A stretch of 25,905 bases of DNA, taken from the IMG/VR virus record IMGVR_UViG_3300030107_004755, positions 1 through 25,905 of that record. One strand, given 5' to 3'. The stretch is from a virus. A program made the position numbers and the translations under genes. The notes beneath the pieces were generated by a model, which was not told the DNA's origin, did not search any database, and saw only the letters and a list, made by a program, of their open reading frames with translations. This document shows, piece by piece, positions 1,007 to 17,756 of the stretch. How positions within the stretch are numbered: position 1 is the first letter of the stretch; each line of letters starts with the position of its first letter.

Positions 1007-1081
1007 TAACTCGTTGAGCATCAACGAGTTACGGGGGCGCGGCCCCCGCGCTTGCGTAAGTCCTTGAGACTTAGCAAGTTA
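1007..1081. repeat. 75-bp composite palindromic element 1
   Basis: Unit A (1007-1031) is a perfect inverted repeat, TAACTCGTTGA and TCAACGAGTTA around a 3-nt loop. A 25-bp GC-rich spacer (1032-1056) follows and contains its own palindrome (GGGGGC/GCCCCC). Unit B (1057-1081) is a degenerate copy. The two units start exactly 50 bp apart. The element lies immediately 3' of the - strand gene that ends at 1088. Confidence 0.85.
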
Positions 1082-1087
1082 TGCGGG

Positions 1088-1303
1088 TTACCCGAAAACC
1101 GAGTCCTGACAAGTCTGGCACATGCCAGAGATGTGGAACTCCTTCAGGCTCAACTCGTCCTTGAACGAGTCGAGGGTGACGGCAGACCCGCAGCAAGGGC
1201 AGGTCTTGGAGGTGATCGCCTCGCGACGATCCACGCCAGTGATGGCGCTGATGGCAGACTCCAACTCGGGAGCCTTGACGGTGGGTGTAGGTTTCCATTC
1301 CAT
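1088..1303 (-). CDS. Small zinc-ribbon phage protein (71 aa)
   Basis: The 71-residue product begins MEWKPTPTVKAPELESAI. Its C-terminal half carries two cysteine pairs, CPCC near residue 35 and CQTC near residue 63, ending in QDSVFG. This layout suggests a four-cysteine zinc ribbon. Short proteins ending in a C-x-x-C-Q-D-x-x-F-G type tail are common among phage hypotheticals, as far as I recall. The start codon lies five bases after the stop of the upstream gene (1309-1461), so the two are almost certainly co-transcribed from the promoter at 1468-1495. The stop is six bases from composite element 1. DNA or protein binding is plausible, but the function is unknown. Confidence 0.8.
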   Translation of the reverse strand: MEWKPTPTVKAPELESAISAITGVDRREAITSKTCPCCGSAVTLDSFKDELSLKEFHISGMCQTCQDSVFG

Positions 1304-1308
1304 AATTT

Positions 1309-1461
1309 TTAGTCAGTAGGGAGTTGATCTTCGTCGGTGGAGAAACGCGGATCGCGGTCGCCCAGTTCCGCGTGGACTTCCGCGAGGAGTTCTTGAATTT
1401 CGCGAGGGTCGTGGTCGAACATCTCGCGTGGGTCTTGCTTTGCTAGCTCGTCGATTGTCAT
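1309..1461 (-). CDS. Small acidic protein, leaderless gene (50 aa)
   Basis: The frame gives a 50-residue, strongly acidic, mostly helical product beginning MTIDELAKQDPREMFDHD and containing two DPRE repeats. The start is set by the promoter TTGCGT, 16 bp, TATAGT, with exactly six bases (tccact) before the ATG. The next gene (1088-1303) begins five bases after its stop. No domain is recognised. Its low pI and small size would fit an early inhibitor or DNA-mimic-like protein, but that is speculation. Confidence 0.75.
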   Translation of the reverse strand: MTIDELAKQDPREMFDHDPREIQELLAEVHAELGDRDPRFSTDEDQLPTD

Positions 1462-1467
1462 AGTGGA

Positions 1468-1495
1468 ACTATACCACAGGTTGGAGGAAACGCAA
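1468..1495 (-). promoter_or_regulatory. Sigma70-type leaderless promoter for 1309-1461 and 1088-1303
   Basis: The - strand shows TTGCGT (1490-1495), 16 bp, TATAGT (1468-1473), six bases, ATG at 1461. An A-rich tract just upstream of the -35 box resembles an UP element. Confidence 0.8.
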
Positions 1496-1526
1496 GGTCT
1501 TTTTTGTATTTTTTTACGATTGTTCG

Positions 1527-1601
1527 TAAGTCGTTGAGTATCAACGAGTTACGGGCGCGGGGCGGGCGCTCCCGCGTAAGTCGTTAAGTATCAATCACTT
1601 A
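1527..1601. repeat. 75-bp composite palindromic element 2
   Basis: Unit A is at 1527-1551, the GC-rich spacer at 1552-1576 and unit B at 1577-1601, again exactly 25+25+25 bp. Unit B overlaps the stop codon of the - strand gene 1595-1759. Confidence 0.85.
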
Positions 1602-1759
1602 GAGTCTCTTTTTCTGCGAGCCAGTTCTTTGCACCAGTCTAATTTCTCAATCAATTCTTTGCGGATATAAGTCCACCTGAGTTTATCTGGCTGTAGGTAT
1701 CTGATGTCACTTTCTAGATCAGCTAGTGCTTTTTGTAGTTCTGTTATCGGTTCATGCAT
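1595..1759 (-). CDS. Small basic helical protein (54 aa)
   Basis: The frame from ATG 1759 gives 54 residues: MHEPITELQKALADLESD at the N-terminus and a lysine/arginine-rich C-terminus (LARRKRDSK). It looks fully alpha-helical and may form a coiled coil. It has no promoter of its own with the local spacing. Its start lies inside the last codons of the 27-codon hydrophobic peptide gene (1744-1827) in another frame, so translation would depend on termination-reinitiation. It is the last gene of an operon that begins at 2329, and its stop codon lies inside composite element 2. Function unknown. Confidence 0.6.
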   Translation of the reverse strand: MHEPITELQKALADLESDIRYLQPDKLRWTYIRKELIEKLDWCKELARRKRDSK

Positions 1760-1827
1760 AAAAGTATTATCATTAAGATTATAGGGAAAAGAAAAGAAAA
1801 GATTGGTGCGATTATTATTTCAATCAT
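1744..1827 (-). CDS. 27-aa hydrophobic membrane peptide, translationally coupled
   Basis: The frame starts at ATG 1827, which overlaps the TGA stop of 1824-2135 (ATGA arrangement), and ends in TAA at 1744. The product begins MIEIIIAPIFSFLFPIILMI, followed by ILLCMNR. It is essentially one transmembrane segment with a short polar tail. It is too short for normal gene finders. Support is the exact stop/start overlap, the hydrophobicity and a second similar case at 3272-3343. Candidate roles are a holin/antiholin-like, superinfection-exclusion or membrane-stress peptide; none can be chosen from sequence. Confidence 0.55.
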   Translation of the reverse strand: MIEIIIAPIFSFLFPIILMIILLCMNR

Positions 1828-2135
1828 GATTGCCACTTGTTTTTGATTTTGATAGAACTATAGAGCTTGCCCATCTGAAAACCTTTGATTGCCGCAAAAG
1901 CAAGACAGGCAGATTTCACATCAAGATCGCGAGCAACACACTCCCAGAGATTAGCGTGATTACCATTCTTCTCTCTCATCTCATCCTCATTGATCCAAAT
2001 GAAAAGTTTACGATCATCTCCCCAACTTTCAAAGTTACCGATGTAGCCGAAGGTCAATCCATCAACATCTTTACAGCGATCACAGATCCTGCGCTCCAAA
2101 GTAACTTCTTCTCTTTGCTTATGGTTTGTTCTCAT
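1824..2135 (-). CDS. Unknown phage protein with a CxxC motif (103 aa)
   Basis: The product is 103 residues, starting MRTNHKQREEVTLERRICDR. A single CDRC pair (residues about 18-21) and many aromatic residues (ESWGDDRKLFIWINEDEM) point to a compact globular protein. I recognise no family. The start is two bases after the stop of 2138-2329, with AAGAAG just before it as a possible weak ribosome site. It is the second gene of the operon driven from 2336-2363. Its stop overlaps the start of the hydrophobic peptide at 1827. Confidence 0.75.
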   Translation of the reverse strand: MRTNHKQREEVTLERRICDRCKDVDGLTFGYIGNFESWGDDRKLFIWINEDEMREKNGNHANLWECVARDLDVKSACLAFAAIKGFQMGKLYSSIKIKNKWQS

Positions 2136-2137
2136 GT

Positions 2138-2329
2138 TTACTTCTTTGTTAGAGGTTTAACAGCGACATCAGAGATGTCATTACCGACAAAGCGGATATT
2201 AAATTCAAGAGCCTCCTCGGAGAGAAGATCCTTAGCAACAATCTCTCCGTCTTTGACAGAGAGTGAGAAGCCACCATCAACAGCGGCACATTCAAGATTA
2301 GAGAGGATTTGGTCAATTCGATTTATCAT
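2138..2329 (-). CDS. Unknown small protein, leaderless gene (63 aa)
   Basis: The true start is ATG 2329 (MINRIDQILSNLE). A longer frame begins at 2347, but the extra codons are the -10 region of the promoter read as protein. The promoter is TTGCAA, 16 bp, TATACT, six bases, ATG. The product has a helical N-terminus and a beta-rich middle (GGFSLSVKDGEIVAKDLL) and no recognised domain. It is the first gene of a four-gene leftward operon reaching 1595. Confidence 0.75.
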   Translation of the reverse strand: MINRIDQILSNLECAAVDGGFSLSVKDGEIVAKDLLSEEALEFNIRFVGNDISDVAVKPLTKK

Positions 2330-2335
2330 AAGGGT

Positions 2336-2363
2336 AGTATACCACAAATTTAGAAACTTGCAA
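2336..2363 (-). promoter_or_regulatory. Sigma70-type leaderless promoter for the 1595-2329 operon
   Basis: The - strand shows TTGCAA (2358-2363), 16 bp, TATACT (2336-2341), six bases, ATG at 2329. Confidence 0.8.
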
Positions 2364-2442
2364 GCACTTTTTATTCTTTTTTATTCAGGTTGTAGGTCAT
2401 AGGTTAAATAGACAAATAGCAAATAGAACCCATGATTCTTCA

Positions 2443-2467
2443 TAACTCACTAAGTATCAACGACTTA
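2443..2467. repeat. Solitary 25-bp palindromic unit
   Basis: This is an additional copy of the 25-bp unit (TAACTCACTAAG then TATCAACGACTTA). It stands 37 bp, start to start, from the first unit of composite element 3, and an AT-rich 12-bp gap separates them instead of the 25-bp GC spacer. Confidence 0.8.
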
Positions 2468-2479
2468 TAGCTATCTTTG

Positions 2480-2554
2480 TAACTCCTTGGTTATCAACGA
2501 GTTACGCGGATTACCCCGCCCCGCCCGCGTAACTCTCTAAGCCTCAACGACTTA
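2480..2554. repeat. 75-bp composite palindromic element 3
   Basis: Unit A is at 2480-2504, the GC-rich spacer at 2505-2529 and unit B at 2530-2554. Unit B overlaps the stop codon of the - strand gene 2552-2785. The 25+25+25 layout is exact. Confidence 0.85.
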
Positions 2555-2785
2555 CGCGAACTCGACATCCTCCATCAAGAACGCTCGCACAGCGTCCTCG
2601 TTGATCGCGTCACTGAGGTCATCAGCGTCATCGGCGCGGCGATCCTGACCGCCCGACCGCCACGCGCCCACCTGCGTAGGCTCGTCGTAGTCGTGACAGG
2701 CGCGAGCGGGAGGCAACGCCTCCAGCAACTCCTCCATGCTAAGGGTTCCGTAGTATCCGTGATTGTAGGCTTCTCTGTCAGTCAT
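2552..2785 (-). CDS. Acidic unknown protein, leaderless gene (77 aa)
   Basis: The 77-residue product begins MTDREAYNHGYYGTLSMEEL and has an aspartate-rich middle (RRADDADDLSDAINEDAV). Its coding DNA is visibly richer in GC than the neighbours at 1595-2329, which may point to separate acquisition. The start is fixed by TTGCGG, 16 bp, TATAGT, six bases, ATG. It stands alone between composite elements 3 and 4. No known domain is recognised. Confidence 0.75.
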   Translation of the reverse strand: MTDREAYNHGYYGTLSMEELLEALPPARACHDYDEPTQVGAWRSGGQDRRADDADDLSDAINEDAVRAFLMEDVEFA

Positions 2786-2791
2786 AGGTAT

Positions 2792-2819
2792 ACTATAGCA
2801 CAGGCTCGCAGAACCGCAA
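2792..2819 (-). promoter_or_regulatory. Sigma70-type leaderless promoter for 2552-2785
   Basis: The - strand shows TTGCGG (2814-2819), 16 bp, TATAGT (2792-2797), six bases, ATG at 2785. An A-rich tract lies upstream. Confidence 0.8.
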
Positions 2820-2850
2820 GCGTTTTTTTGTGTTTTTATTCGATTCTTTG

Positions 2851-2925
2851 TAACTCACTAAGCGTCAACGAGTTACGCGGCGCGGGCGGCGCGGCCCGCG
2901 TAACTCCCTGAGTATCAACGAGTTA
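2851..2925. repeat. 75-bp composite palindromic element 4
   Basis: Unit A is at 2851-2875, the GC-rich spacer at 2876-2900 (CGCGGCGCGGGC... ending CCCGCG) and unit B at 2901-2925. The element is 26 bp beyond the 3' end of the - strand gene 2952-3269. Confidence 0.85.
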
Positions 2926-2951
2926 CGCTGTCAAGCGTTTTTTTCTTTTTT

Positions 2952-3269
2952 TTACGCCACGGTGAGGTCATCACTCTTGACCATCAAGTCCTCCTTGATG
3001 AGCCTGTGACGGCAGACGGGATGAATGTCTGGGCGGCTGTCCCTACGCAAGCGCAAGACGGTGGCGAGTATCTCCTCGCACACTCTGCGGAAGTCGCGGA
3101 TATCGCGCCGCTCCTCAACTGCGTCCTTGCACATGGTGATGATGACGGCGGCGGTGTAGGTGTCAACCTTGTCCTCAAGAGAACACCCTGCGCCCCTTTC
3201 TTTGGTGCGGCAAGCCTTGAGGGTTTCAACGATCACGGAGTAGATGAATGCTGGTTTTTTGACGGTCAT
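2952..3269 (-). CDS. Unknown basic helical protein (105 aa)
   Basis: The product is 105 residues (MTVKKPAFIYSVIVETLKAC...), with mixed charge, arginine-rich towards the C-terminus (LRLRRDSRPDIHPVCRHRL), and three or four cysteines without a clear metal-site spacing. Its ATG lies two bases after the stop of the 23-codon hydrophobic peptide (3272-3343). It has no promoter at leaderless spacing, so it is probably translated by coupling as the third gene of the unit starting at 3534. Composite element 4 follows its stop. The GC-rich codon use contrasts with the AT-rich genes elsewhere. Function unknown. Confidence 0.7.
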   Translation of the reverse strand: MTVKKPAFIYSVIVETLKACRTKERGAGCSLEDKVDTYTAAVIITMCKDAVEERRDIRDFRRVCEEILATVLRLRRDSRPDIHPVCRHRLIKEDLMVKSDDLTVA

Positions 3270-3271
3270 GA

Positions 3272-3343
3272 TTAAAGGTAGTTTTGAATTTGTGTTAGTA
3301 TGTAGATTAGGAAGCCGACTATTGCGATTATTGGATTATCCAT
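3272..3343 (-). CDS. 23-aa hydrophobic membrane peptide, translationally coupled
   Basis: The ATG at 3343 shares its first base with the TAA stop of 3343-3534 (TAATG), and the frame ends in TAA at 3272. The product begins MDNPIIAIVGFLIYILTQIQ and then NYL: a single predicted membrane span with a short polar N-terminus. The downstream gene (2952-3269) starts two bases after it, so it fills the gap between two genes exactly. It resembles the peptide at 1744-1827 in size, hydrophobicity and coupling, although the sequences are not clearly related. Function unknown. Confidence 0.55.
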   Translation of the reverse strand: MDNPIIAIVGFLIYILTQIQNYL

Positions 3344-3534
3344 TATGGGCGCATCTTGATTTCTGCAACTGCTTCATCAAGTCTGCGCTCGATCTTCTTG
3401 AAACCCTCCTTTTGGAAAGCGTCTTTTGCCCATTCAGCATTTGCAGCAGCAGTGCCAGAGATGCCTTGCACCTTCATGCGGAGCTTGAAGATTTGATCCT
3501 TGAGGTGTTCGATTTGTCTTTCTTGGTCTGTCAT
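3343..3534 (-). CDS. Small helical protein, paralogue of 4854-5060 (63 aa)
   Basis: The 63-residue product begins MTDQERQIEHLKDQIFKLRM and looks like a coiled coil. It aligns along its length with the product of 4854-5060: both start MTD-x-E, share a G-[IV]-S-G turn in the middle, then a W, and end with K-[KV]-[IV]-E-x-RLDEA. The two genes therefore look like a duplication. The promoter is TTGCAC, 17 bp, TATAGT, six bases, ATG. It is the first gene of a three-gene unit with the 23-codon peptide and 2952-3269. An oligomerising or accessory role is likely, but the function is unknown. Confidence 0.75.
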   Translation of the reverse strand: MTDQERQIEHLKDQIFKLRMKVQGISGTAAANAEWAKDAFQKEGFKKIERRLDEAVAEIKMRP

Positions 3535-3540
3535 GATGTA

Positions 3541-3569
3541 ACTATACTCTATGATTTGAATTAGTGCAA
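3541..3569 (-). promoter_or_regulatory. Sigma70-type leaderless promoter for 3343-3534 and followers
   Basis: The - strand shows TTGCAC (3564-3569), 17 bp, TATAGT (3541-3546), six bases, ATG at 3534. Confidence 0.8.
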
Positions 3570-3597
3570 GTGAAAAGATGATTTTTTTTTCAGTTTT

Positions 3598-3852
3598 TTA
3601 TCGGCCTATGCCGAAGCTGACGCGACCGTGCGCGATGTCAAGTTGGTCGCCGTGCGCCTCCCATGCCGCCTCACGGCTAGGGAATTCGACAATGCGACCA
3701 GTTCCCTCCGCGATTTTAGCGTAAGGGTTACGGATGAGACGCTCGCACTTTTCGCGCTTCCAGTTACCGCCGAAGCAGACCTCGCCAGAGATGCCACGGT
3801 GAGTTTTCTTTTTACCGAAGAGAACGAAGAAGGGTGTTTGCTTATCTTTCAT
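3598..3852 (-). CDS. Unknown small protein, leaderless gene (84 aa)
   Basis: The start is ATG 3852 (MKDKQTPFFVLFGKKKTHRG). A longer frame back to 3909 only reads through the promoter. The 84-residue product is basic with aromatic residues and a FPSREAAWEAHGDQLD segment. That segment looks like a short alpha/beta domain that might bind nucleic acid or nucleotide, but I recognise no family. The promoter is TTGCGT, 16 bp, TATACT, six bases, ATG. It is a single-gene unit, and the next promoter starts about 30 bp beyond its stop. Confidence 0.75.
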   Translation of the reverse strand: MKDKQTPFFVLFGKKKTHRGISGEVCFGGNWKREKCERLIRNPYAKIAEGTGRIVEFPSREAAWEAHGDQLDIAHGRVSFGIGR

Positions 3853-3858
3853 ACTGGT

Positions 3859-3886
3859 AGTATACCACACCCCCAGAGAAACGCAA
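3859..3886 (-). promoter_or_regulatory. Sigma70-type leaderless promoter for 3598-3852
   Basis: The - strand shows TTGCGT (3881-3886), 16 bp, TATACT (3859-3864), six bases, ATG at 3852. A long A tract lies upstream of the -35 box. Confidence 0.8.
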
Positions 3887-3958
3887 GTTTTATTTTCGTT
3901 TTTTTTCACTTTTTTTTCTCAACTTTTCGCTTGACATGACTTTTAGTAACAACTTGCG

Positions 3959-4033
3959 TAAGTCACTGAGTATCAACGACTTACGCGGCGCGGGGGGCCG
4001 CGCCCGCGTAACTCCCTAAGTATCAAGGAGTTA
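3959..4033. repeat. 75-bp composite palindromic element 5
   Basis: Unit A is at 3959-3983, the GC-rich spacer at 3984-4008 and unit B at 4009-4033, exactly 25+25+25 bp. It lies 35 bp beyond the 3' end of the small basic gene at 4069-4188. Confidence 0.85.
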
Positions 4034-4068
4034 CGGGGCTTTTTACTGGCACTTGACTGACTGACTTG

Positions 4069-4188
4069 TCAAGAATTTTCTTGCAGTTTTTTTCTGCGCT
4101 TCTCGGCAACCTTCTGCATCCGAATGATTTTATTCTTGCGGTTGCGCTTCAGTTGCTTGCGGTGTTTGGTAGCGGCTCTCTTGTCCAT
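4069..4188 (-). CDS. 39-aa highly basic peptide
   Basis: The frame from ATG 4188 gives 39 residues, MDKRAATKHRKQLKRNRKNK followed by a further helical basic stretch (IIRMQKVAEKRRKKLQ) and ENS. Nearly half the residues are lysine or arginine. It lies 18 bp downstream of the membrane protein gene 4207-4527, on the same strand, and is followed by composite element 5. Nucleic-acid binding is the natural guess from composition. A ribosome-like or host-takeover peptide is possible, but nothing here decides it. Confidence 0.55.
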   Translation of the reverse strand: MDKRAATKHRKQLKRNRKNKIIRMQKVAEKRRKKLQENS

Positions 4189-4206
4189 GATTTTTTTTTG
4201 TGTGTG

Positions 4207-4527
4207 TTAGAGTTTGATGTCTACGAGTTGTTTGCCTGTGATAGTGTTAGGTGTGCGCTTGCGCTTCTTTGGTGCGTTGAGCCAGTCAACGAACGTGAGC
4301 AAAGGAGCGAAGAACATAGCAGGTAAGAAAGTGACAGCGGCAAAGTGTAAGAAGTTATAGGCATGATACCATACCTCGCCGTCAGGGTTGGTGACATAGT
4401 AGCCACCCATATTATCGAGTGCTAAGTCTAAGCCTACGAAGTAAGCCATCAGGCCGAAGATCCCAAGGATTGCGAGAGTTGTAATGCCTACAACAGTGAC
4501 GAAGTGATTGATGAAGATTTGTTTCAT
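4207..4527 (-). CDS. Small membrane protein with two or three spans (106 aa)
   Basis: Hydrophobic segments lie at residues about 8-32 (VTVVGITTLAILGIFGLMAY) and about 58-84 (FLHFAAVTFLPAMFFAPLLT). Between them is a polar stretch with tyrosines (GGYYVTNPDGEVWYHAYN), and a basic tail follows (NAPKKRKRTPNTITGKQL). This suggests two membrane spans with the basic tail in the cytoplasm. It lies 40 bp after the stop of 4568-4801 and lacks a promoter with the local spacing, so it is probably co-transcribed from 4808-4835. A TATAAT three bases before its ATG has no -35 partner. A holin role is possible but not supported by any neighbouring lysis gene. Confidence 0.7.
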   Translation of the reverse strand: MKQIFINHFVTVVGITTLAILGIFGLMAYFVGLDLALDNMGGYYVTNPDGEVWYHAYNFLHFAAVTFLPAMFFAPLLTFVDWLNAPKKRKRTPNTITGKQLVDIKL

Positions 4528-4567
4528 TGGATTATAGTAGTTTATTTTTTTTTGTTTTGTTAGATTA

Positions 4568-4801
4568 TTATCGGCAGTCCTCAGTCCACCAGACTCTTGC
4601 CTCGGTGTCTACCCAACACTCAACGCCTCTGTTGTTGTGGTAGAATCTGCCAGCCTTGCCAAGCTCGCCATTGTTGTTTTTGTCTGCGTGTTCTTGGCGT
4701 TGCTTTCTGTTGCTCTCCCAAGCTGAGTCAGTTGGCCAACAGGTGGCGATCTCCACACAGTCAACGATCTCGCCAGATTTGTTTTTGAATTGCTTTATCA
4801 T
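4568..4801 (-). CDS. Unknown small protein with W/C-rich end (77 aa)
   Basis: The 77-residue product begins MIKQFKNKSGEIVDCVEIAT, with a polar asparagine/lysine middle and a tryptophan- and cysteine-rich end (VECWVDTEARVWWTEDCR). Four cysteines are present but not in a zinc-ribbon spacing. The promoter is TTGCAT, 16 bp, TATACT, six bases, ATG. It heads a unit with the membrane protein (4207-4527) and the basic peptide (4069-4188). No family is recognised. Confidence 0.75.
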   Translation of the reverse strand: MIKQFKNKSGEIVDCVEIATCWPTDSAWESNRKQRQEHADKNNNGELGKAGRFYHNNRGVECWVDTEARVWWTEDCR

Positions 4802-4807
4802 GTCAGT

Positions 4808-4835
4808 AGTATACCAGTTATTGAGTTAAATGCAA
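4808..4835 (-). promoter_or_regulatory. Sigma70-type leaderless promoter for 4568-4801 and followers
   Basis: The - strand shows TTGCAT (4830-4835), 16 bp, TATACT (4808-4813), six bases, ATG at 4801. Confidence 0.8.
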
Positions 4836-4853
4836 GGATTATTTTGTTTTATT

Positions 4854-5060
4854 TTATCCGAAGATGATTTTAGAAACTACCTTGTCGTCTTGCTTGAGAG
4901 CTTCGTCTAGTCTGCCCTCAACCTTCTTGAGCCATACGGATGCCTCGGCATCGTTGCACCACATTGACATACCAGAGACTTGCCCCGATACCCCGCAGAT
5001 CTCCCCGCGTAGTCTTGAATTTGCTTCGATTAGTTTAGTGATCTTTTCGCTGTCAGTCAT
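4854..5060 (-). CDS. Small helical protein, paralogue of 3343-3534 (68 aa)
   Basis: The 68-residue product begins MTDSEKITKLIEANSRLRGE. It shares its whole layout with 3343-3534: MTD start, GVSG turn, central W, and a LKKVEGRLDEAL end. It differs in having two cysteines and an added C-terminal tail (KVVSKIIFG). The promoter is TTGCAT, 17 bp, TATAGT, six bases, ATG; the 17-bp spacer and the sequence around the -10 (TATAGTTACA) also match the paralogue, so promoter and gene may have been duplicated together. Function unknown. Confidence 0.75.
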   Translation of the reverse strand: MTDSEKITKLIEANSRLRGEICGVSGQVSGMSMWCNDAEASVWLKKVEGRLDEALKQDDKVVSKIIFG

Positions 5061-5066
5061 GTTGTA

Positions 5067-5095
5067 ACTATAGTCTAGATTTTGATTTAATGCAA
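5067..5095 (-). promoter_or_regulatory. Sigma70-type leaderless promoter for 4854-5060
   Basis: The - strand shows TTGCAT (5090-5095), 17 bp, TATAGT (5067-5072), six bases, ATG at 5060. Confidence 0.8.
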
Positions 5096-5099
5096 GTAT

Positions 5100-5282
5100 T
5101 TATTTTGTTTTTTTATAGAATTCTTGATTCATGAGAGCTTCGGCAATCTCATCGGCTAGCTCTTTAAAGTTTTTTGAAGTTGGACCGATTGGCAAAATGC
5201 CATTGGACATGAGGCGATCACAAGCCTCTCGATAGCATATGATGTAGTCGGTATCTGTTAAGTGCTTAGGTGCTTTTTTCAT
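5100..5282 (-). CDS. Unknown small protein (60 aa)
   Basis: The 60-residue product begins MKKAPKHLTDTDYIICYREA and is mostly helical and basic at both ends. I recognise no family. Its promoter is TTGCGC, 17 bp, TAAACT, six bases, ATG. The -35 box is embedded in a perfect 10-bp inverted repeat (5298-5321), unlike the other promoters. It is probably a single-gene unit. Confidence 0.7.
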   Translation of the reverse strand: MKKAPKHLTDTDYIICYREACDRLMSNGILPIGPTSKNFKELADEIAEALMNQEFYKKTK

Positions 5283-5288
5283 GTTTTA

Positions 5289-5317
5289 AGTTTACTCGAT
5301 CTTGCGCCGAAGCGCAA
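5289..5317 (-). promoter_or_regulatory. Leaderless promoter for 5100-5282, overlapping a hairpin
   Basis: The - strand shows TTGCGC (5312-5317), 17 bp, TAAACT (5289-5294), six bases, ATG at 5282. The -35 box is part of the right arm of the inverted repeat at 5298-5321. Confidence 0.65.
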
Positions 5318-5327
5318 GATCTTTTTT
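5298..5327 (+). terminator. Perfect 10-bp hairpin with T6 tail (+ strand terminator shape)
   Basis: GATCTTGCGC and GCGCAAGATC pair perfectly around a CGAA loop, and TTTTTT follows on the + strand. On the - strand the same hairpin has a UUCG loop closed by C-G, a very stable tetraloop, but no U tract. As a + strand terminator it has no + gene before it. It may stop antisense read-through or act on the - transcript from 5337-5636. Confidence 0.55.
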
Positions 5328-5336
5328 GTTTTTTTC

Positions 5337-5636
5337 TCACTTTATTATCGTGAGCTTGTCGAGTGCATCAACGCCGAAGTCAATGCCGAAGGGCGAAGGC
5401 TTGGACAGATCGCCCCAGTCTTCGATCTCGTTAAGCAGTGAAGTGGCAAGCGATGCCCAACAGTCGCGAGAGAATCCCGCTGTAGCGTTAGAGCATACAC
5501 GACGAACAACCAAGTCCACCGCATCAGTCGCGGCATCAGGAAACTTAGTTGTAAGGTGATCGAACAAAAGCTCGCCATCTTCATTGGCGAAGCGAGGAGC
5601 GAGACGGACGGCATCGGATATAAGTTGTGCTAACAT
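5337..5636 (-). CDS. Unknown protein, first leftward gene (99 aa)
   Basis: The start is ATG 5636 (MLAQLISDAVRLAPRFANED). The frame extends to 5654, but those codons are promoter. The 99-residue product is mainly helical, with a cysteine-containing centre (VVRRVCSNATAGFSRDCW) and an acidic C-terminal half. No family is recognised. The promoter is TTGCAT, 17 bp, TATACT, six bases, ATG. It is the most promoter-distal gene from the left end and lies back to back with the rightward PhoH operon. Confidence 0.75.
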   Translation of the reverse strand: MLAQLISDAVRLAPRFANEDGELLFDHLTTKFPDAATDAVDLVVRRVCSNATAGFSRDCWASLATSLLNEIEDWGDLSKPSPFGIDFGVDALDKLTIIK

Positions 5637-5642
5637 GCTGTA

Positions 5643-5671
5643 AGTATACCACACTTCTCAGATAAATGCAA
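5643..5671 (-). promoter_or_regulatory. Sigma70-type leaderless promoter for 5337-5636
   Basis: The - strand shows TTGCAT (5666-5671), 17 bp, TATACT (5643-5648), six bases, ATG at 5636. Confidence 0.8.
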
Positions 5672-5794
5672 GCTCTTTTTTGTTTTTTTATCACTTTTTT
5701 TAGGGGGAGGGTTTTTTCAGAATTCTTGACTTTTCGCTTGACAGCCACAGAGCGGGGGGGTGGTGAATTCTATAAACATCAAGCCATCCATTCA

Positions 5795-5815
5795 GTTCTT
5801 CGTGTAAAAAAGAAC
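5795..5815 (+). promoter_or_regulatory. Operator/promoter-like site before the PhoH operon
   Basis: GTTCTT (5795-5800) and AAGAAC (5810-5815) form an inverted repeat with GTGTAA (5802-5807) between them, 12 bases before the ATG at 5820. The divergent region 5672-5819 also holds TTGACA (5738-5743) and TATAAA (5771-5776), but they are 27 bp apart, too far for a standard sigma70 promoter. The 15-mer ACTTTTCGCTTGACA at 5729-5743 also occurs at 3922-3936. Confidence 0.4.
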
Positions 5816-5819
5816 ATAA

Positions 5820-6497
5820 ATGTCATTTAAATATAAAAACTCTTTTTTGTTGGGGCATATAGAACTTACAGAGAAACAAAGTCAATTCCATAAGATAATG
5901 AGAAACCCCGAAACGCGGGTAGTATTTATTAGTGGACCAGCAGGGACGGCAAAGACATTTTTGTCAGTGTATACAGCACTATATAAACACAATAAGGACA
6001 ATCTGCTTAAAATACTCTATTTAAGAAGTTTGGCTGAGAGTGCGGATAAGGGGATGGGTTTTCTGAAAGGAAGTATGGATGATAAATTTAATCCTTATAT
6101 TGGACCCCTTGAAGATAAACTGGATGAACTTTTAAATGCACATGAAAAACACCAATTACAACAGCGGGATGCGGTAGATGCGGCCCCGATTAACTTTATC
6201 CGTGGAGCTACATGGAGAAATAAAGTTGTCATCGTAGATGAGGCACAGAATATGACAGTAAAAGAACTTACAACAGTCATAACCCGAATTAGCGCCAATT
6301 CTACGTTATATATATGCGGAGACACTATGCAGAGCGATATTAACGCCACGGGTTTTCAAAAATTCTGTAAAGTCTTCGATGATGAGGAAAGTAAGAGCTA
6401 TGGCATACATCACTTACATTTTACCAAAGATGATGTCATGAGAGATAAAATTATAAGCTATTTGGTAGATAAAATTGAAAAAAGTGATTTAAATTAA
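5820..6497 (+). CDS. phoH: PhoH-like P-loop ATPase (225 aa)
   Basis: This is a cytoplasmic ATPase of the PhoH family, found in many phages; its role in infection is not settled (RNA metabolism and stress responses are proposed for the family). The sequence shows a Walker A motif GPAGTAKT at residues 39-46, a Walker B VVIVDEAQ at 136-143, and a later YICGDTMQSD segment (164-173) typical of the family's sensor region. The length is close to the single-domain phage form, with no KH or PIN domain attached. No Shine-Dalgarno sequence precedes the ATG. It opens the rightward gene string; the zinc-ribbon gene follows after 11 bp. Confidence 0.9.
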   Translation: MSFKYKNSFLLGHIELTEKQSQFHKIMRNPETRVVFISGPAGTAKTFLSVYTALYKHNKDNLLKILYLRSLAESADKGMGFLKGSMDDKFNPYIGPLEDKLDELLNAHEKHQLQQRDAVDAAPINFIRGATWRNKVVIVDEAQNMTVKELTTVITRISANSTLYICGDTMQSDINATGFQKFCKVFDDEESKSYGIHHLHFTKDDVMRDKIISYLVDKIEKSDLN

Positions 6498-6508
6498 TAA
6501 AATTAGCC

Positions 6509-6871
6509 ATGAATAAGGTTTTCTGTGTATCGTGTGGTTCTAAGATCTTATATGAATTGAAAAAGCCAAAATTTTGCTCTACTTGTGGCGAGCCTCTTGA
6601 TGGGGTGACTACTTCGAAGTCGAAAAATGAAGAAGAAGAAACTTCTGAGCTTGATGTTAATTTAAATAAGTTAAAAAGAGATATTGTAGTCGAAAATAAT
6701 GAACAACAAACTACTGTTGAGCAAATTTGGGGTTCAGTTACCTCTAGTGAAGCAAATAGGGGTAGAGACTCATTTAATAGACCCGCTTCAAAAGACCCGA
6801 GCGGAAAAGAGCTTTTAGATAAAACCATTCAAGATTGTTCTTCCTCAAGGATGAGGGATGTAGATGAATAA
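6509..6871 (+). CDS. Zinc-ribbon protein with disordered tail (120 aa)
   Basis: Residues 6-27 form a four-cysteine zinc ribbon (CVSC at 6-9, CSTCG at 23-27). The rest, from about residue 35, is acidic, rich in lysine, glutamate, serine and asparagine, and probably disordered. It has no other recognisable domain. It is followed with an 8-nt overlap by the sigma-like gene at 6864, and the shared position suggests a partner in transcription, for example binding RNA polymerase or the sigma-like protein. That is inference from context only. Confidence 0.75.
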   Translation: MNKVFCVSCGSKILYELKKPKFCSTCGEPLDGVTTSKSKNEEEETSELDVNLNKLKRDIVVENNEQQTTVEQIWGSVTSSEANRGRDSFNRPASKDPSGKELLDKTIQDCSSSRMRDVDE

Positions 6872-7541
6872 TGATTTTGATAGTCAGCGTGAAGATCTAG
6901 AAGAACTCTTAAAAAAATATAGACCTAAATGGCAATTAAGTGCCATAGCGTGGATGGACTACGATGATGTCTGTCAAATAATACGCTTACATATATATAA
7001 TAAGTGGCACCTTTGGGATCAAGAGCGTCCGTTCAAGCCTTGGGCTTCAATGATTATATCCAATCAGATAAAAAATCTGATTCGTAATAATTATTCTAGC
7101 TTTGCAAAGCCTTGTTTAAGATGTCCCCATAATATGGGCGGCACTTCATGTGAATTTACCAAAAGTAAAGAGCAAGACGAAACTTGTGCTGATTTTGCGA
7201 AATGGAAGAAAAAGAAAGAAAGAGCTTATAATATAAAGCTTCCTCTGGCTTTAGAGGAGGGTGTTGCGACAGGAACTGCGACAATAAGGGATTTTGTCAA
7301 TTACAAGGAATCCTCAGATAAACTTCATGGGTTAGTCATGGATCAATTAAACGAAAAGCATAAAAAAATTTATTATATGCTTTATATCGAGAACATTGAT
7401 GAAAATGATGTTGCTAAAAAATTTGGGTTTAAAGCAGATGTTTCAAAAAGAAAAAAGCCACGATACAAGCAAATGGCTAATTTAAAAAAGAAATTTTACC
7501 AGATAGCTATTAAAATTATAAAAGACAACGATATTTTATGA
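6864..7541 (+). CDS. Sigma-factor-like protein, probable late transcription factor (225 aa)
   Basis: The N-terminal part resembles sigma70 region 2: a DYDDVCQIIRLHIYNKW stretch (32-48), then RPFKPWASMIISNQIKNLIR (55-74). The C-terminal part (about 160-210) has a region-4-like helical pattern: LNEKHKKIYYMLY, then IDENDVAKKFGF and a lysine-rich end. Between them is a likely zinc-binding insert, C84-x2-C87-x8-C96-x11-C108. This fits a phage sigma factor directing host RNA polymerase to late promoters, as gp55 does in T4-like phages, but similarity to gp55 itself is not demonstrable here. It overlaps its neighbours at both ends (8 nt before; ATGA with the next gene). The pairing with a GTGTAA motif upstream of late genes is a hypothesis. 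Confidence 0.65.
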   Translation: MNNDFDSQREDLEELLKKYRPKWQLSAIAWMDYDDVCQIIRLHIYNKWHLWDQERPFKPWASMIISNQIKNLIRNNYSSFAKPCLRCPHNMGGTSCEFTKSKEQDETCADFAKWKKKKERAYNIKLPLALEEGVATGTATIRDFVNYKESSDKLHGLVMDQLNEKHKKIYYMLYIENIDENDVAKKFGFKADVSKRKKPRYKQMANLKKKFYQIAIKIIKDNDIL

Positions 7542-8599
7542 GCAATATAGAATTAACACAAGAACAAAAGAATCAAATACAAGAAGAGTTTGCTCGTAAC
7601 CCTGATTTGAAACATATCACCCAAACCGTCTTTGAAAATGACTCTCTTGATGGACGCTCAAAAGAAGGCAGGGCCGTTAGATCATTTTTAATTAATAATA
7701 ATTTAGAATTTACTACTACTTTAGTTCCAAGGGTGGAGGAGGTTGATCTAACATCAGAACAGAAAGAGTTTTTGATGAGTAATAATGTTGAACGTGGCAT
7801 GAACGCTCTTGAAGTGACTCGTTTGACCTTTAAAGACAGAGAGATACAGCCACTAAGTCAACAACATAGAACGGTGATGGAATTTTTGCGTCAGCATAGG
7901 CCAGAGATAGTTGATGATAATGAAATGTTGACTAACGACAAGTGGTCTCCACCGAAGTCTTTATCAAGAGCTATCAAAAAGGTCAATGATTGGGCTGGGC
8001 AGAATTTTGACGAAATATCTATCCAAACAAAACAAAAGAAAATGTGCGAGAAGCTTTTACTCTACTTGAAGAGTCCAAGGTTCGTGCATTTTATTAATCA
8101 ATACTCAACAATAGCAGATAGAGATTTATTTGAGAGCGAATTTGTGAGGACAGTGTGGGACAAGCCTGACCTGACAAACGATGAGTTAAATTTATATATT
8201 ACCGTTTGCACAAACTACGTCAGACAGAAGCATATCCAGCAAAGAATCGACAGATTGAATAATATGCTCAATGACACTGATAATGAACGAGATATAACAT
8301 TACGTCTTACTGAGCTTATAAAGGCCACTAGCGAGGAGTTGAACCAATGTGAGAAAAGAATCGAATCTTTGACGAAAGACCTTAATGGAAGCCGTCAGGC
8401 GCGTTTAAAGGCAAGAGGGGAGCAGAATGGGAGTATCGCTGCGCTTGTTGAGGCATTTCAAGAGAAAGAAGAACGTGATCGTATGATCATGATGGCAGAG
8501 ATGCAAAACAAGTTAATAGAAGAGGAAGCTGACCGACTTGAAACGATGGACGAGTATAAGGCTCGTATTTTAGGTATATCCAAAAAAGAAATATTGTAA
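7538..8599 (+). CDS. Unknown coiled-coil protein of the packaging module (353 aa)
   Basis: The start overlaps the stop of the sigma-like gene (ATGA) and the stop overlaps the next start (TAATG), so the gene is firmly in the operon. The first 150 residues are polar and helical. Residues about 160-220 look globular (KKMCEKLLLYLKSPRFVHFI), and residues about 230-335 are a long heptad-like coiled coil (RLNNMLNDTDNERD ... EEEADRLETMDEYKARIL). I recognise no family. Its position just before a nuclease and the large terminase would fit a small terminase or packaging adaptor, but it is larger than most small terminases and no helix-turn-helix is obvious. Confidence 0.7.
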   Translation: MSNIELTQEQKNQIQEEFARNPDLKHITQTVFENDSLDGRSKEGRAVRSFLINNNLEFTTTLVPRVEEVDLTSEQKEFLMSNNVERGMNALEVTRLTFKDREIQPLSQQHRTVMEFLRQHRPEIVDDNEMLTNDKWSPPKSLSRAIKKVNDWAGQNFDEISIQTKQKKMCEKLLLYLKSPRFVHFINQYSTIADRDLFESEFVRTVWDKPDLTNDELNLYITVCTNYVRQKHIQQRIDRLNNMLNDTDNERDITLRLTELIKATSEELNQCEKRIESLTKDLNGSRQARLKARGEQNGSIAALVEAFQEKEERDRMIMMAEMQNKLIEEEADRLETMDEYKARILGISKKEIL

Positions 8600-9549
8600 T
8601 GGAATTCACTTGTCTAGAGTGTAATAAAAAGTTTGATAACAAGAGGAGTTTTCACGCGCACCTGAAAGCTCACGCTCTCACTATTGGTGATTACTACGTC
8701 AAATACTACGAAAGAAAAGATTTGTATTCGGGCGAAAAGATCCCTTTCAAATCTTATGATCAATACTTTAGGGATAATTTTATCAGTTATGATAATTTTA
8801 AGTTATGGATGGACTCGGCTCCAGAGGAGGATGTCAAAAATCACCTCAAAGAGAAAGCGAAACAAAAATTTGATTTAAAAGGGGTAAAAAGCTCTCCACC
8901 AAACCTTTTCTATGATTTATCAGAGATGGCTGGTATTTATTATTATAAAAAACTATGGGGGTCTTATAAAAGTTTCTTGGATGAGCTAGGAGTAGATAAT
9001 CATTTTTGTGGGGGACTGCCTAGAGATTTCTGGAAGGTTGATAGAAGTAGTATTCCTTTATTTACTGATACAAGAGAAAAAGCTCCCTTAAAATTCAAAG
9101 ACTCTATAGTTAACAAATTAGATTTCGGGGATTATACAGCTAGAGGTAATTATTATACATCTACATTTGTAGATAGAAAAGCTCAGGATGATTTCAGGCA
9201 GACCTTTGGTAAAGATATAGATAGATTCAGGAGAGAGATGGATAGGTGTGTTCAGTTTAATTCATATATGTTTGTAGTAGCAGAGACAACTATTAGCAAA
9301 CTAGAAGAGCACAATAAAAAATCTAAATTCAAATCTAACTTAGGGTATCTGTGGCACAATGTTCGCAATCTGCTTATAGATTACCCGAAAAACCTACAAA
9401 TCATTTTTGCACACAATAGAGCAGGAGCTAAAAAAATCATTCCACTAATTCTGCACTATGGAGACGGATTGTGGAATACAGACTTACAATATTTTATAGA
9501 TGAACGAGTAAATGTCTTGGACAAAGGGAAAACAAGGATATCGGCTTGA
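8599..9549 (+). CDS. C2H2 zinc finger fused to ERCC4/XPF-type nuclease (316 aa)
   Basis: The N-terminus is a canonical C2H2 finger: C5-x2-C8-x12-H21-x3-H25 (FTCLECNKKF...HLKAH). A middle helical region follows. Residues 155-300 carry the nuclease signature of the XPF/Mus81 (ERCC4) superfamily: DTREK (157-161), GDY (177-179) and DRKAQDD (192-198), matching the family's GDYxxx...(E/D)RKxxxD metal-binding core. The glutamate usual before RK is aspartate here. It should cut DNA in a structure- or sequence-dependent way. Its place immediately before terL suggests resolving branched DNA or nicking during packaging. The start overlaps the previous stop (TAATG). Confidence 0.8.
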   Translation: MEFTCLECNKKFDNKRSFHAHLKAHALTIGDYYVKYYERKDLYSGEKIPFKSYDQYFRDNFISYDNFKLWMDSAPEEDVKNHLKEKAKQKFDLKGVKSSPPNLFYDLSEMAGIYYYKKLWGSYKSFLDELGVDNHFCGGLPRDFWKVDRSSIPLFTDTREKAPLKFKDSIVNKLDFGDYTARGNYYTSTFVDRKAQDDFRQTFGKDIDRFRREMDRCVQFNSYMFVVAETTISKLEEHNKKSKFKSNLGYLWHNVRNLLIDYPKNLQIIFAHNRAGAKKIIPLILHYGDGLWNTDLQYFIDERVNVLDKGKTRISA

Positions 9550-11407
9550 GCATTCCTCTCAGGAACTGAATAAGTTCCTAAAGGAAATGGATGGCAGTAT
9601 CAAAGAAGAAGAAGCGAAGTATTTGCTGTATAAGTTCCTACGGAACAATATAGCATTTACATCTGAACTCTTTTTAGGTGTTAGGTTATTCCCCTTTCAA
9701 GCAATGGCTATTAAGGGGATGATGGTTTCTGACTACTCTATGTTCGTTTTCTCGCGTGGTATGTCAAAGACGTTCTCTACTGCCATTTATGTATTACTTG
9801 AGTGCCTACTTAATCCTAACGCCAATATAGGGGTAATAGCAGGTAGCTTTAGGCAATCAAAACAAATCTTCCAAAAGATGGAGGATATTGTTAGCAAACC
9901 CGAAGCTAGTCTAATTAAAGAATGTGGATTTAAAATAACCAAAGGAACTGACCAATGGACATTAACTTTAGGTAAGGCTAGGGCGATAGCCCTTCCGTTA
10001 GCTAACGGTGAAAGACTCCGTGGATTTCGATTTAACAGGATTGTATTGGATGAGTTCTTAACTATACCTGAAAAGATATTTAATGAAGTTATTATACCAT
10101 TTCTGGGTGTGGTAGAGAATCCTATCGAGAGGGAGGAATTATACAATTTAGAATCCAAATTAATCGACAAGGGCGAGATGAAAGAAGAGGATAGATACAT
10201 TTGGCCTAACAATAAGCTTATCATCCTGTCATCTCCATCCTTCAAATTCGAATACATGTATAAACTTTATAAGAAGTATGAAGATCTAATTCATGGGCAA
10301 GAGCTAAAAAGCGACGATGACGAAGAGGAGAGTTTTAAAGATGATGCTTATAGACTGATTATGCAGTTAAGTTATGACTGTGCTCCATCAAGGTTATACG
10401 ATCAGAATCTGCTTAAACAAGCAAAGGCGACTATGAGTGAGATGCAGTTCAAGAGAGAGTTTGGTGCTCAGTTTATAGATGAAAGTGATGGGTATTTCAG
10501 ATTATCAAAAATGGCGGCTTGCACAGTGCCTGATGGCGAGTTCCCTTCTGTAGAGGTTGTCGGTAATCCTAGTGATGAGTATTTATTGGCTTTTGACCCC
10601 AACTGGGCAGGTAACACAAGTGCTGACCACTTTGCAATGCATGTGTTTAAAATAGACAGAGACGCAAAAAAGATTTGTTTAGTTCATAGCTACGCAATAG
10701 CAGGAGTTTCTCTGAAAGAGCATATGCAATATTTTCTATATCTAATACAATATTTTAACATTGTTGGTATCTGCGGTGACTACAATGGAGGCGTTCAGTT
10801 TATAAATTCTTGTAATGAGAGTGCTTTGTTTAAAGAAAACAATATAAAAATAGGAGTTATTGATGTTGATCTAGAGAAACCAGAAAACTGGAACTCAGAT
10901 ATTTTATCTTTTAAAAATCAATATAATCTTAGAGAGCGGAATTACTGCATATTAAGAAAGCCTACATCAAACTGGATAAGAAATGCTAATGAAATGTTAC
11001 AGGCGGCTATAGACCACAAAAGAATTTTATTTGCTTCTAGGGCTGTGGATAGTCATTTTGATGAGCAAAGAAAAAAGAATATACCAATAGATAAAATAAA
11101 ATGGGATATAAAGACACCTGTAGCTTCTAAGGGAGCGATGATGATTGATTTAATTGACCATCAAAAGTATGTGGTAGAACTTACAAAGTCAGAATGTGCG
11201 AACATTGAGGTGATTGGTAACCCGCAGGGTTCACAGTCTTTTAACCTACCTCAGAACTTAAGGAGGCAGAAAGGGCCGAACAGAGCGAGAAAAGACTCTT
11301 ATTCTGCTTTGGTTTTAGGCAATTGGTTCGCTAAGGTATTTTTTGATGCGGAAAATGCCAGCGTAGAGAAAAAACCACAAGGCACATTTATTCCTTTTGC
11401 AATTTGA
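9512..11407 (+). CDS. terL: Terminase large subunit (631 aa)
   Basis: This is the ATPase/nuclease motor that packages DNA into the prohead. Residues 80-87 give a deviant Walker A (FSRGMSKT, serine in place of the last glycine). Walker B is RIVLDE (176-181), with E181 as the catalytic glutamate, and the coupling motif is ILSSPS (238-243). The C-terminal RNase H-like nuclease has the three acidic positions D362 (AFDPNWAG), D423 (CGDYNGG) and D595 (RKDSYSAL). The first ATG (9512) overlaps the nuclease gene by 38 nt. An alternative start at 9588 (MDGSIKEEE) would remove the overlap and 25 residues, and both are plausible. Length is normal for the family. Confidence 0.93.
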   Translation: MSWTKGKQGYRLEHSSQELNKFLKEMDGSIKEEEAKYLLYKFLRNNIAFTSELFLGVRLFPFQAMAIKGMMVSDYSMFVFSRGMSKTFSTAIYVLLECLLNPNANIGVIAGSFRQSKQIFQKMEDIVSKPEASLIKECGFKITKGTDQWTLTLGKARAIALPLANGERLRGFRFNRIVLDEFLTIPEKIFNEVIIPFLGVVENPIEREELYNLESKLIDKGEMKEEDRYIWPNNKLIILSSPSFKFEYMYKLYKKYEDLIHGQELKSDDDEEESFKDDAYRLIMQLSYDCAPSRLYDQNLLKQAKATMSEMQFKREFGAQFIDESDGYFRLSKMAACTVPDGEFPSVEVVGNPSDEYLLAFDPNWAGNTSADHFAMHVFKIDRDAKKICLVHSYAIAGVSLKEHMQYFLYLIQYFNIVGICGDYNGGVQFINSCNESALFKENNIKIGVIDVDLEKPENWNSDILSFKNQYNLRERNYCILRKPTSNWIRNANEMLQAAIDHKRILFASRAVDSHFDEQRKKNIPIDKIKWDIKTPVASKGAMMIDLIDHQKYVVELTKSECANIEVIGNPQGSQSFNLPQNLRRQKGPNRARKDSYSALVLGNWFAKVFFDAENASVEKKPQGTFIPFAI

Positions 11408-11432
11408 AAAGTTTCAAAGTAACTTTTATAAC
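11404..11432 (+). promoter_or_regulatory. Possible sigma70-like promoter before the portal gene
   Basis: TTGAAA (11404-11409), 17 bp and TATAAC (11427-11432) would start transcription about 12 bp before the portal ATG at 11451. A GTGTAA (11437-11442) lies exactly 8 bp before the same ATG. Either signal could be the real one. Confidence 0.4.
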
Positions 11433-11450
11433 TTTAGTGTAAACTTTGAT

Positions 11451-13415: not shown

Positions 13416-13423
13416 GAAAAGAT

Positions 13424-14926: not shown

Positions 14927-14944
14927 ACAATCAATTAATCAATT

Positions 14945-15577
14945 ATGGCTAACGAAATTACACGTTTACTGCCGTTTCGTCAATACGACGAGAATGATGT
15001 TATCAACTTCTATTCTCTCGATACCGAAACGGGCGAGGCGGGTTCTGTTGTTAAGATTAGTTCCGCTAATCTTACTGATGATCCTGTCAAGTATGTCCAG
15101 CGAGGGGACTCTGATTCCTTCCAGACTACTTTAGGCAAAGGTCTGTCCATGTATCCAGAGGTGCCTTACAAGGTCACCAAATGTAGTGATACTGGTGCGG
15201 GCGTTAAAGCAATCGGGATTCTTTTGCGCGATGTTCGCAATAAAGATGAGAACGGAGAGAACCTTCTTTACTACCCACAGAAAAAAGAGGAACTCCAGTG
15301 TGTTGTTTCTGGTGAGGCTGTTCCCGTAGCTACTCGGGGTCTGTTCACCATTAACACTAGGGGTCTTACAGACGGAGTTGTTCCTTCTGTTAATGACTAT
15401 GCTCTACCATCTAAGAATGGAACTATCACTGGTATCTCCAGTGCTACTCCTGCTAAACATGCAGAGCATCATGCCCATAACATTGGAAGCTTCATCGCTA
15501 CTGGTAATAGGGAATCTCAAGGTGGCACTACGGACGTTTTCGCTGGTGCTTATGCAATTCTTAAACTTCGCTGCTAA
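14945..15577 (+). CDS. Probable capsid decoration/stabilisation protein (210 aa)
   Basis: The 210-residue product starts MANEITRLLPFRQYDENDVI and is rich in beta structure and glycine/threonine, without charged repeats or membrane segments. It sits between the scaffold and the major capsid gene, the standard place for head decoration proteins. Codon use shifts here to the same strongly expressed style as the capsid gene. No Shine-Dalgarno sequence precedes it; the 18-bp gap is AT-rich. The family is not recognised from sequence alone, so the role is inferred from position and composition. Confidence 0.65.
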   Translation: MANEITRLLPFRQYDENDVINFYSLDTETGEAGSVVKISSANLTDDPVKYVQRGDSDSFQTTLGKGLSMYPEVPYKVTKCSDTGAGVKAIGILLRDVRNKDENGENLLYYPQKKEELQCVVSGEAVPVATRGLFTINTRGLTDGVVPSVNDYALPSKNGTITGISSATPAKHAEHHAHNIGSFIATGNRESQGGTTDVFAGAYAILKLRC

Positions 15578-16735: not shown

Positions 16736-16759
16736 GCAAGCTTATGCTTCTAATAAAAA

Positions 16760-16790
16760 GAGTCGCCTCGAAAGGGGCGGCTCTTTTTTT
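16760..16790 (+). terminator. Intrinsic terminator after the major capsid gene
   Basis: GAGTCGCC (16760-16767) pairs with GGCGGCTC (16776-16783), including one G-T pair, around an 8-nt loop, followed by TTTTTTT (16784-16790). Confidence 0.85.
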
Positions 16791-16791
16791 A

Positions 16792-16820
16792 TTGATTTTT
16801 ATATAAATTTAGACTATCAT
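16792..16820 (+). promoter_or_regulatory. Sigma70-like promoter right after the terminator
   Basis: TTGATT (16792-16797), 17 bp, TATCAT (16815-16820), then five bases to the ATG at 16826. This repeats the leaderless spacing of the left arm on the + strand. A TATAAA at 16802 is an alternative -10. Confidence 0.5.
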
Positions 16821-16825
16821 GTATT

Positions 16826-17263: not shown

Positions 17264-17266
17264 TTA

Positions 17267-17755: not shown

Positions 17756-17756
17756 T

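Follow-up and report, generated by a model that had tools for sequence, protein, structure and literature searches.

The stretch analyzed here, referred to as the window, comprises positions 1 to 25,905 of the IMG/VR virus record IMGVR_UViG_3300030107_004755 (our record G000) and is part of the genome of a tailed phage, covering 25.9 kb. Between positions 1007 and 4033, an array of short minus-strand genes is punctuated by five copies of a 75-bp composite palindromic element, which we regard with moderate confidence as the boundary of cassettes in a one-way array of short phage genes, serving as a crossover joint and presumably also as a separator of transcription units. As judged from sequence comparisons, related phages appear to swap these cassettes by crossover inside the element.

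The element is built from 25-bp inverted repeat units. Eleven of them had been noticed in a previous sequence-only reading, starting at positions 1007, 1057, 1527, 1577, 2443, 2480, 2530, 2851, 2901, 3959, and 4009, and all were recovered by a scan of the window, which gave 22 strand matches with at most three mismatches, compared to a mean of 0.62 and a maximum of 4 in dinucleotide-preserving shuffles of the window. Ten of these units form five pairs with starts exactly 50 bp apart, as had been reported, resulting in elements of 25/25/25 bp. The units are arranged as follows:

1007–1081: element 1, units 1007–1031 and 1057–1081 with a GC spacer at 1032–1056; 3' of gene 1088–1303 (minus strand)
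1527–1601: element 2, units 1527–1551 and 1577–1601; overlaps the stop of gene 1595–1759 (minus strand)
2443–2467: lone 25-bp unit, 37 bp ahead of element 3
2480–2554: element 3, units 2480–2504 and 2530–2554; 3' of gene 2552–2785 (minus strand), overlapping its stop
2851–2925: element 4, units 2851–2875 and 2901–2925; 3' of gene 2952–3269 (minus strand)
3959–4033: element 5, units 3959–3983 and 4009–4033; 35 nt past the stop of the 39-aa gene 4069–4188 (minus strand)

All five elements are located at the 3' end of a minus-strand gene, the 39-aa gene included, and two overlap the stop codon, in agreement with the previous description; in element 3, the terminal TAA (2552–2554 on the minus strand) is itself the stop codon of gene 2552–2785. 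The spacers are GC-rich as stated before, while their characterization as uniformly palindromic and ending in CGCG was too general: the end is CGCG in four of the five and TGCG in the element at 1007, and the spacer of the element at 2480 is only a weak palindrome. Third units at a distance of 37–47 bp from a pair, similar to the lone unit at 2443, also occur in relatives; extra third or fourth units 34–60 bp from a pair were noticed in G022 (L196) at 3625–15474 and in G001, G006, G011, G014, and G015.

A scan of viral contigs for the pair retrieved at least 120 viral stretches, and reversed-pattern controls over whole records yielded zero. Another set of relatives was fetched via the PhoH-like gene bordering the array, so the element was not selected for, and the 80 nearest relatives were kept. 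On the array side of PhoH, pairs were present in 39 of the 40 loci whose flanking sequence exceeds 2 kb, and in all 30 and all 16 loci in which it exceeds 4 kb and 8 kb, respectively, amounting to 150 pairs in 281 kb on the left (array) side vs. none in 590 kb on the right side. The spacing of the units in this survey was 50 bp in 131 pairs, 52 bp in 17 pairs from one subclade, and 49 bp in two pairs, while G022 mostly shows a spacing of 51 bp, corresponding to a 26-bp spacer. The geometry, previously described as fixed, is therefore near-constant rather than invariant, 51 and 52 bp representing subclade variants. Relatives thus carry paired units with conserved geometry at gene ends, and both the near-constant spacing and the unit consensus are shared among phages whose terminases are only about 50% identical.

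Outside of these phages, only four stretches from two metagenome bins contained the pair when 84,980 genomes of bacteria and archaea were searched. These stretches (L132–L135) are contigs of metagenome-assembled genomes affiliated with Verrucomicrobiales and Flavobacteriaceae, and one of them (C38) encodes a relative of the tail protein of the window. They are probably phage contigs within bacterial bins and provide a clue to the host that is weak at best. No copy of the element was found in 50,697 phage records, plasmids yielded nothing more than short chance matches, an Rfam scan of the window at gathering score gave no match, including the element, and a literature search with the motif sequence returned no relevant paper.

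The carriers contain 2–15 pairs each at a median distance of 1.2 kb, and the intervals between them mostly accommodate one to four short genes with a median length of 83 aa. The arrays are unidirectional, with 273 oriented elements vs. 2. Genes were called with a home-made hexamer caller that produced some spurious calls on the opposite strand; a comparison of convergent and divergent placement was discounted, because the arrays are unidirectional and several of the opposite-strand calls are spurious. Among 331 gene 3' ends near elements, the first TAA of the element represents the stop codon in 34 cases, and another 92 genes end 0–19 nt before it. The next gene after the element is preceded by a −10 box 5–7 nt before its start in 39 of 100 cases, compared to 3.8 expected, and the spacing shows a sharp peak at 6 nt in the relatives (67 of 321 first genes). 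Together with a TTG[AC] motif 28–29 nt upstream of the start and a near-complete lack of Shine-Dalgarno sequences, this box marks the promoter following the element as leaderless. As for the 3' side of the element, the sequence-only reading had stated that U tracts are lacking on either strand. This holds for the coding strand in the window, while the plus strand contains T7CT8 within about 12 nt after the element at 2851–2925; in the larger set, 64 of the 289 20-mers located downstream of elements contain T5 and 74 contain A5, and their composition is not T-rich. We therefore agree that the elements differ from ordinary intrinsic terminators, given that no U tract follows their GC hairpin on the strand being transcribed.

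A view on gene order shows that it is less well preserved across elements. Co-directional adjacencies were kept in 436 of 1235 comparisons across an element (35%) vs. 2307 of 3124 without an element (74%); averaged per adjacency, the values are 0.45 across an element, 0.72 without an element, and 0.66 for element-free gaps of more than 100 nt. In broken adjacencies, the left half of the element is akin to the element of the upstream gene (excess identity 0.059, confidence interval [CI] 0.038–0.082) and the right half to that of the downstream gene (0.045, CI 0.027–0.065), while the crosswise excess identities are 0.019 (CI −0.003 to 0.043) and 0.001. Kinship among the sequences inflates simple p-values; genome bootstraps and one-per-genome samples were used. 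The fact that the two halves track different neighbors points to crossovers inside the element. Some chimeric elements are readable individually (L017:4587, L094:9257, and L257:2281), the first of them being identical to one element of L126 over its first 38 bases and matching another element with its last unit. Moreover, 201 of the DNA alignments crossing an element terminate no more than 25 bp from its far edge, compared to 54 expected (3.75 times), an excess that is partly an artifact of alignments being carried through the repeat inside which they would otherwise stop. Alignment ends inside the elements were discarded as a measure of breakpoints: they amount to 2.0% vs. 4.9% expected, because alignments extend through the repeat. 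The exchange of cassettes at the elements, one of several roles considered in the sequence-only reading, is thus plausible and backed by synteny breaks as well as chimeric elements.

The element combines parts of different conservation, as seen in a set of 192 non-redundant oriented elements, with the analysis being repeated with one element per genome. The units follow the consensus TAASTCNNTNA-N3-TNANNNASTTA, usually with CG after it, and their arms do not covary in the 192 elements (z −2.3 and −0.4; below zero also with one per genome). The spacer covaries in an 11-3-11 register (z +9.8; +6.4 with one per genome), and sliding this register by one or two bases gives values between −4.8 and +0.9. 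The compensating arm changes named beforehand as a test of selection on structure are therefore absent from the 25-bp units and present in the spacer. Because they are conserved without arm covariation, the units look like a sequence that is recognized as such, while the core looks like a structure. The variable dinucleotide of the units favors GT or AC in the outer and GT or CT in the inner half-sites, mirrored about the center of the element. Covariation of the unit arms, sought as support for RNA or cruciform hairpins, was thus not found; a single hairpin of all 75 nt was rejected as well, since units 1 and 2 avoid being complementary to each other (z −7.1 in the 192 elements and −4.0 when each genome contributes one). 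Finally, the spacer loop (element positions 37–39) is C-rich on the coding strand, with a skew of 0.36 (CI 0.26–0.45) and CCC in 75 vs. GGG in 27 of the 192 elements; effects of the coding strand and of the genome strand are inseparable here, because the arrays are unidirectional.

If the element represents a cassette boundary, each cassette would begin with an often leaderless promoter, continue with a single short gene or a few of them, and end in a 75-bp element abutting or containing the last stop codon. The two units may act as a dyad of four half-sites read by a putative protein and flanking the GC-rich core, which would fold into an 11-bp stem closed by a 3-nt loop. Searches of 26 carrier records, some of them incomplete, retrieved no tyrosine recombinase (PF00589; the control was detected in 14 of 14 genomes), no serine recombinase (PF00239; several of these records span 80–148 kb), and no Y1 transposase/RAYT (repetitive extragenic palindrome-associated tyrosine transposase, PF01797; the control was positive in six genomes). 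Candidate recombination genes are those for RecA-like and RuvB-like proteins and a PD-(D/E)XK nuclease in G004 and for an ERCC4-type nuclease in the window. Because none of these three enzyme types was found and a RecA-like protein and nucleases are present, the simplest route of exchange would be RecA-type homologous recombination of the phages themselves, acting on the repeated element. A further function seems to be needed, because units and geometry are strongly conserved over deep divergence. Since the element is located between a gene end and the next promoter, we infer that its selected everyday job may be to separate adjacent transcription units via a protein-bound or structured road-block, which would allow any cassette to sit beside any other. 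The crossover joining of cassettes is supported by the sequence comparisons, as are the 3'-end position, the covariation of the core, the breaks in gene order, and the geometry, and the insulation of transcription is proposed in addition.

Several observations weigh against this interpretation. The lack of a coding-strand U tract counts against the part concerning insulation or termination, and the C-rich spacer loop hints at an RNA or strand-specific role. The reduced adjacency across elements may partly be a mark of operon ends. Genes of the same cassette do not co-occur more frequently than neighbors across an element (co-presence 0.199 vs. 0.207), which gives no clear sign of the gain or loss of entire cassettes. 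The triple chimeras observed directly are limited to 30 comparisons with 18 elements, with a CI for the right half that includes zero, and fine mapping revealed a gradual transition over the spacer and unit 2 rather than a single crossover base.

Some of these features would fit an RNA 3'-end element, whose three hairpins in the transcript would stop transcription even though no U tract follows, or would shield the 3' end of the mRNA from exonucleases, the shuffling being a by-product of many copies. We consider this a possible, though doubtful, explanation. It would account for the position at gene ends abutting stop codons, the covarying central hairpin, and the C-rich loop, and unit 1 alone folds better on the coding strand. 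The 75-nt single strands are also stable, as folding of the window elements confirmed: the coding strands fold much better than shuffled sequences (z −2.9 to −7.1). However, the arms of the units lack covariation, the whole element shows no strand preference in RNA stability (the coding strand is better in 90 of 192, p 0.57), and no U tract follows. An orientation signal of G-U vs. A-C pairs looked promising in the window and was gone in the larger set (131 vs. 134 in the spacer).

The elements may alternatively be binding sites of a phage DNA-organizing protein involved in replication, partition, packaging, or supercoiling, which are intergenic merely because coding sequence is not free. The units indeed behave as a sequence-specific dyad, with distinct alleles of outer and inner half-sites in mirror symmetry about the center. 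Yet the elements are limited to one side of PhoH and to cassette ends instead of being distributed genome-wide, and the linkage of half-elements to neighboring genes is not predicted by such a role alone, which renders it unlikely.

Integrons consist of a unidirectional cassette array with a foldable attC site at the 3' end of each cassette, and exchange occurs within that site. The element might correspondingly be a site for site-specific recombination by an unrecognized recombinase acting on the folded spacer. The strictly one-way array, the foldable site at each cassette end with its structured GC core between two recognition units, and the crossover falling inside the element are all shared features. 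In contrast to integrons, an IntI-type tyrosine recombinase was detected in none of the 26 carriers, incomplete records among them, nor were the other two families even in the largest records; the cassettes carry their own promoters, the flanks are conserved in sequence and the core in structure, and the breakpoint signal is gradual instead of being confined to one base. We therefore consider such a site rather improbable. The same caution applies to a phage system parallel to integrons, in which the four-half-site element with its hairpin core would be cut or paired by an unrecognized phage protein and a site-directed crossover in the core would exchange self-promoted cassettes; we rate it as a long shot. 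Passive duplication of a functionless repeat around the array might explain that the elements of one phage share a dialect, as seen in the spacers of G016, but is very improbable given the shared unit consensus and near-constant spacing among phages with such divergent terminases, the covarying spacer, and the presence in all 30 relatives whose left flank exceeds 4 kb.

With respect to known systems, repetitive extragenic palindromes and bacterial interspersed mosaic elements (REP/BIME), to which the element had been compared at first, are likewise palindromes of 20–40 bp that are paired in composites and mostly located 3' of genes. As judged from their typical tag, RAYT, and copy number (PMC3733652, PMC2817692), this assignment does not hold: the GTAG/CGTC tag is absent beside the units, no RAYT was found in the carriers, whose records may be incomplete, and the element occurs in 2–15 pairs clustered in one phage region, with fewer than 20 copies, rather than in more than 100 copies scattered over a chromosome.

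A closer functional counterpart are the promoter early stem-loops (PeSLs) of T4-type phages, reportedly the subject of studies by Arbiol et al. in 2010 and Comeau et al. in 2014 (both cited in PMC4503421). In both systems, the small genes of a variable region are separated by a structured intergenic element and a promoter, the order of element and promoter being borne out here by the −10 boxes of the next genes, and the modular gene shuffling among related phages was also observed here. PeSLs are described as mediators of shuffling (PMC4503421). A stem-loop acting as a transcription terminator is another feature of PeSLs, whereas the element lacks a U tract on its coding strand. The element differs from them by its 25/25/25 triple palindrome without a coding-strand U tract, and the carriers are not T4-type as judged from the genes checked (PolIII-alpha-type polymerase and their own terminase, portal, and capsid). 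It is best described as a new form of the punctuation by which phages shuffle genes, functionally akin to PeSLs and distinct in anatomy. The element makes the trade of small, fast-changing phage genes readable from the sequence: a phage clade without close relatives among the searched phage records, known solely from environmental sequence, has a recognizable joint at nearly every exchange point, and T4-like shuffling punctuation is seen in an unrelated anatomy. The motif may be used to delimit such cassettes in metagenomes and offers a ready target for finding its reader protein.

The cassette genes and −10 hexamers of the array, together with two genes to its right, are:

1088–1303, minus: cassette gene, 71 aa, rich in Cys with CxxC pairs, weakly matching phrog_19722 (unknown function)
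1309–1461, minus: cassette gene, 50 aa, immediately preceded by a promoter of the leaderless type
1468–1473, minus: TATAGT, separated by exactly 6 nt from the ATG of 1309–1461, with TTGCGT about 16 bp further upstream
1595–1759, minus: cassette gene, 54 aa, relative in G014 at 20776
1824–2135, minus: cassette gene, 103 aa
2138–2329, minus: cassette gene, 63 aa, 84–89% identity in several relatives
2336–2341, minus: TATACT, 6 nt before the ATG at 2329
2552–2785, minus: cassette gene, 77 aa, ending within element 3
2792–2797, minus: TATAGT, 6 nt before the ATG at 2785
2952–3269, minus: cassette gene, 105 aa
3343–3534, minus: cassette gene, 63 aa
3598–3852, minus: cassette gene, 84 aa, up to 80% identity in G017/L070
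3859–3864, minus: TATACT, 6 nt before the ATG at 3852
4069–4188, minus: cassette gene, 39 aa, rich in Lys/Arg, recognized by eye in the sequence
5820–6497, plus: PhoH-like gene bordering the array (phrog_170, 1.8e-59)
8599–9549, plus: ERCC4-type nuclease (phrog_3490), adjoining the terminase gene

Leaderless-type promoters on the minus strand were recognized at 1461–1473, 2329–2341, 2785–2797, 3852–3864, 5060–5072, and 5636–5648, with TATAGT or TATACT ending 6 nt before the ATG and TTGC or TTGA 16–17 bp upstream. The spacer of element 1 recurs unchanged in the relative G014 (position 20253), and that of element 4 is found in G014 (20674) and G009 (36265).

Beyond PhoH and the nuclease, the window encodes the large subunit of the terminase as well as a minor tail protein. 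The portal and the major capsid protein, both conserved in relatives, are putative assignments from gene order, and neither has a PHROG match. Among the 50,697 phage records, the putative capsid protein has no match, and the terminase and putative portal have distant matches only; no cultured relative was detected by element or by capsid. The ERCC4-type nuclease is a candidate structure-specific nuclease for the hairpin core; its N-terminus, as read by eye, resembles a C2H2-like finger. The larger relatives G001, G004, and G005 (113–148 kb) contain the same structural block as the window, and G004 additionally encodes a PolIII-alpha-type polymerase, DnaB, a primase, and ribonucleotide reductase, apart from the RecA-like, RuvB-like, and PD-(D/E)XK proteins mentioned above. 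This 148-kb record also harbors two diverged pairs of GP88-like and DUF932 genes (16262–18401 and 140980–142730), the second of which is located among elements. A classic intrinsic terminator is present in the window at 5298–5321 on the plus strand, where a GC-rich hairpin of 10 perfectly paired bp is followed by a T6 tail, the surrounding genes being encoded on the opposite strand.

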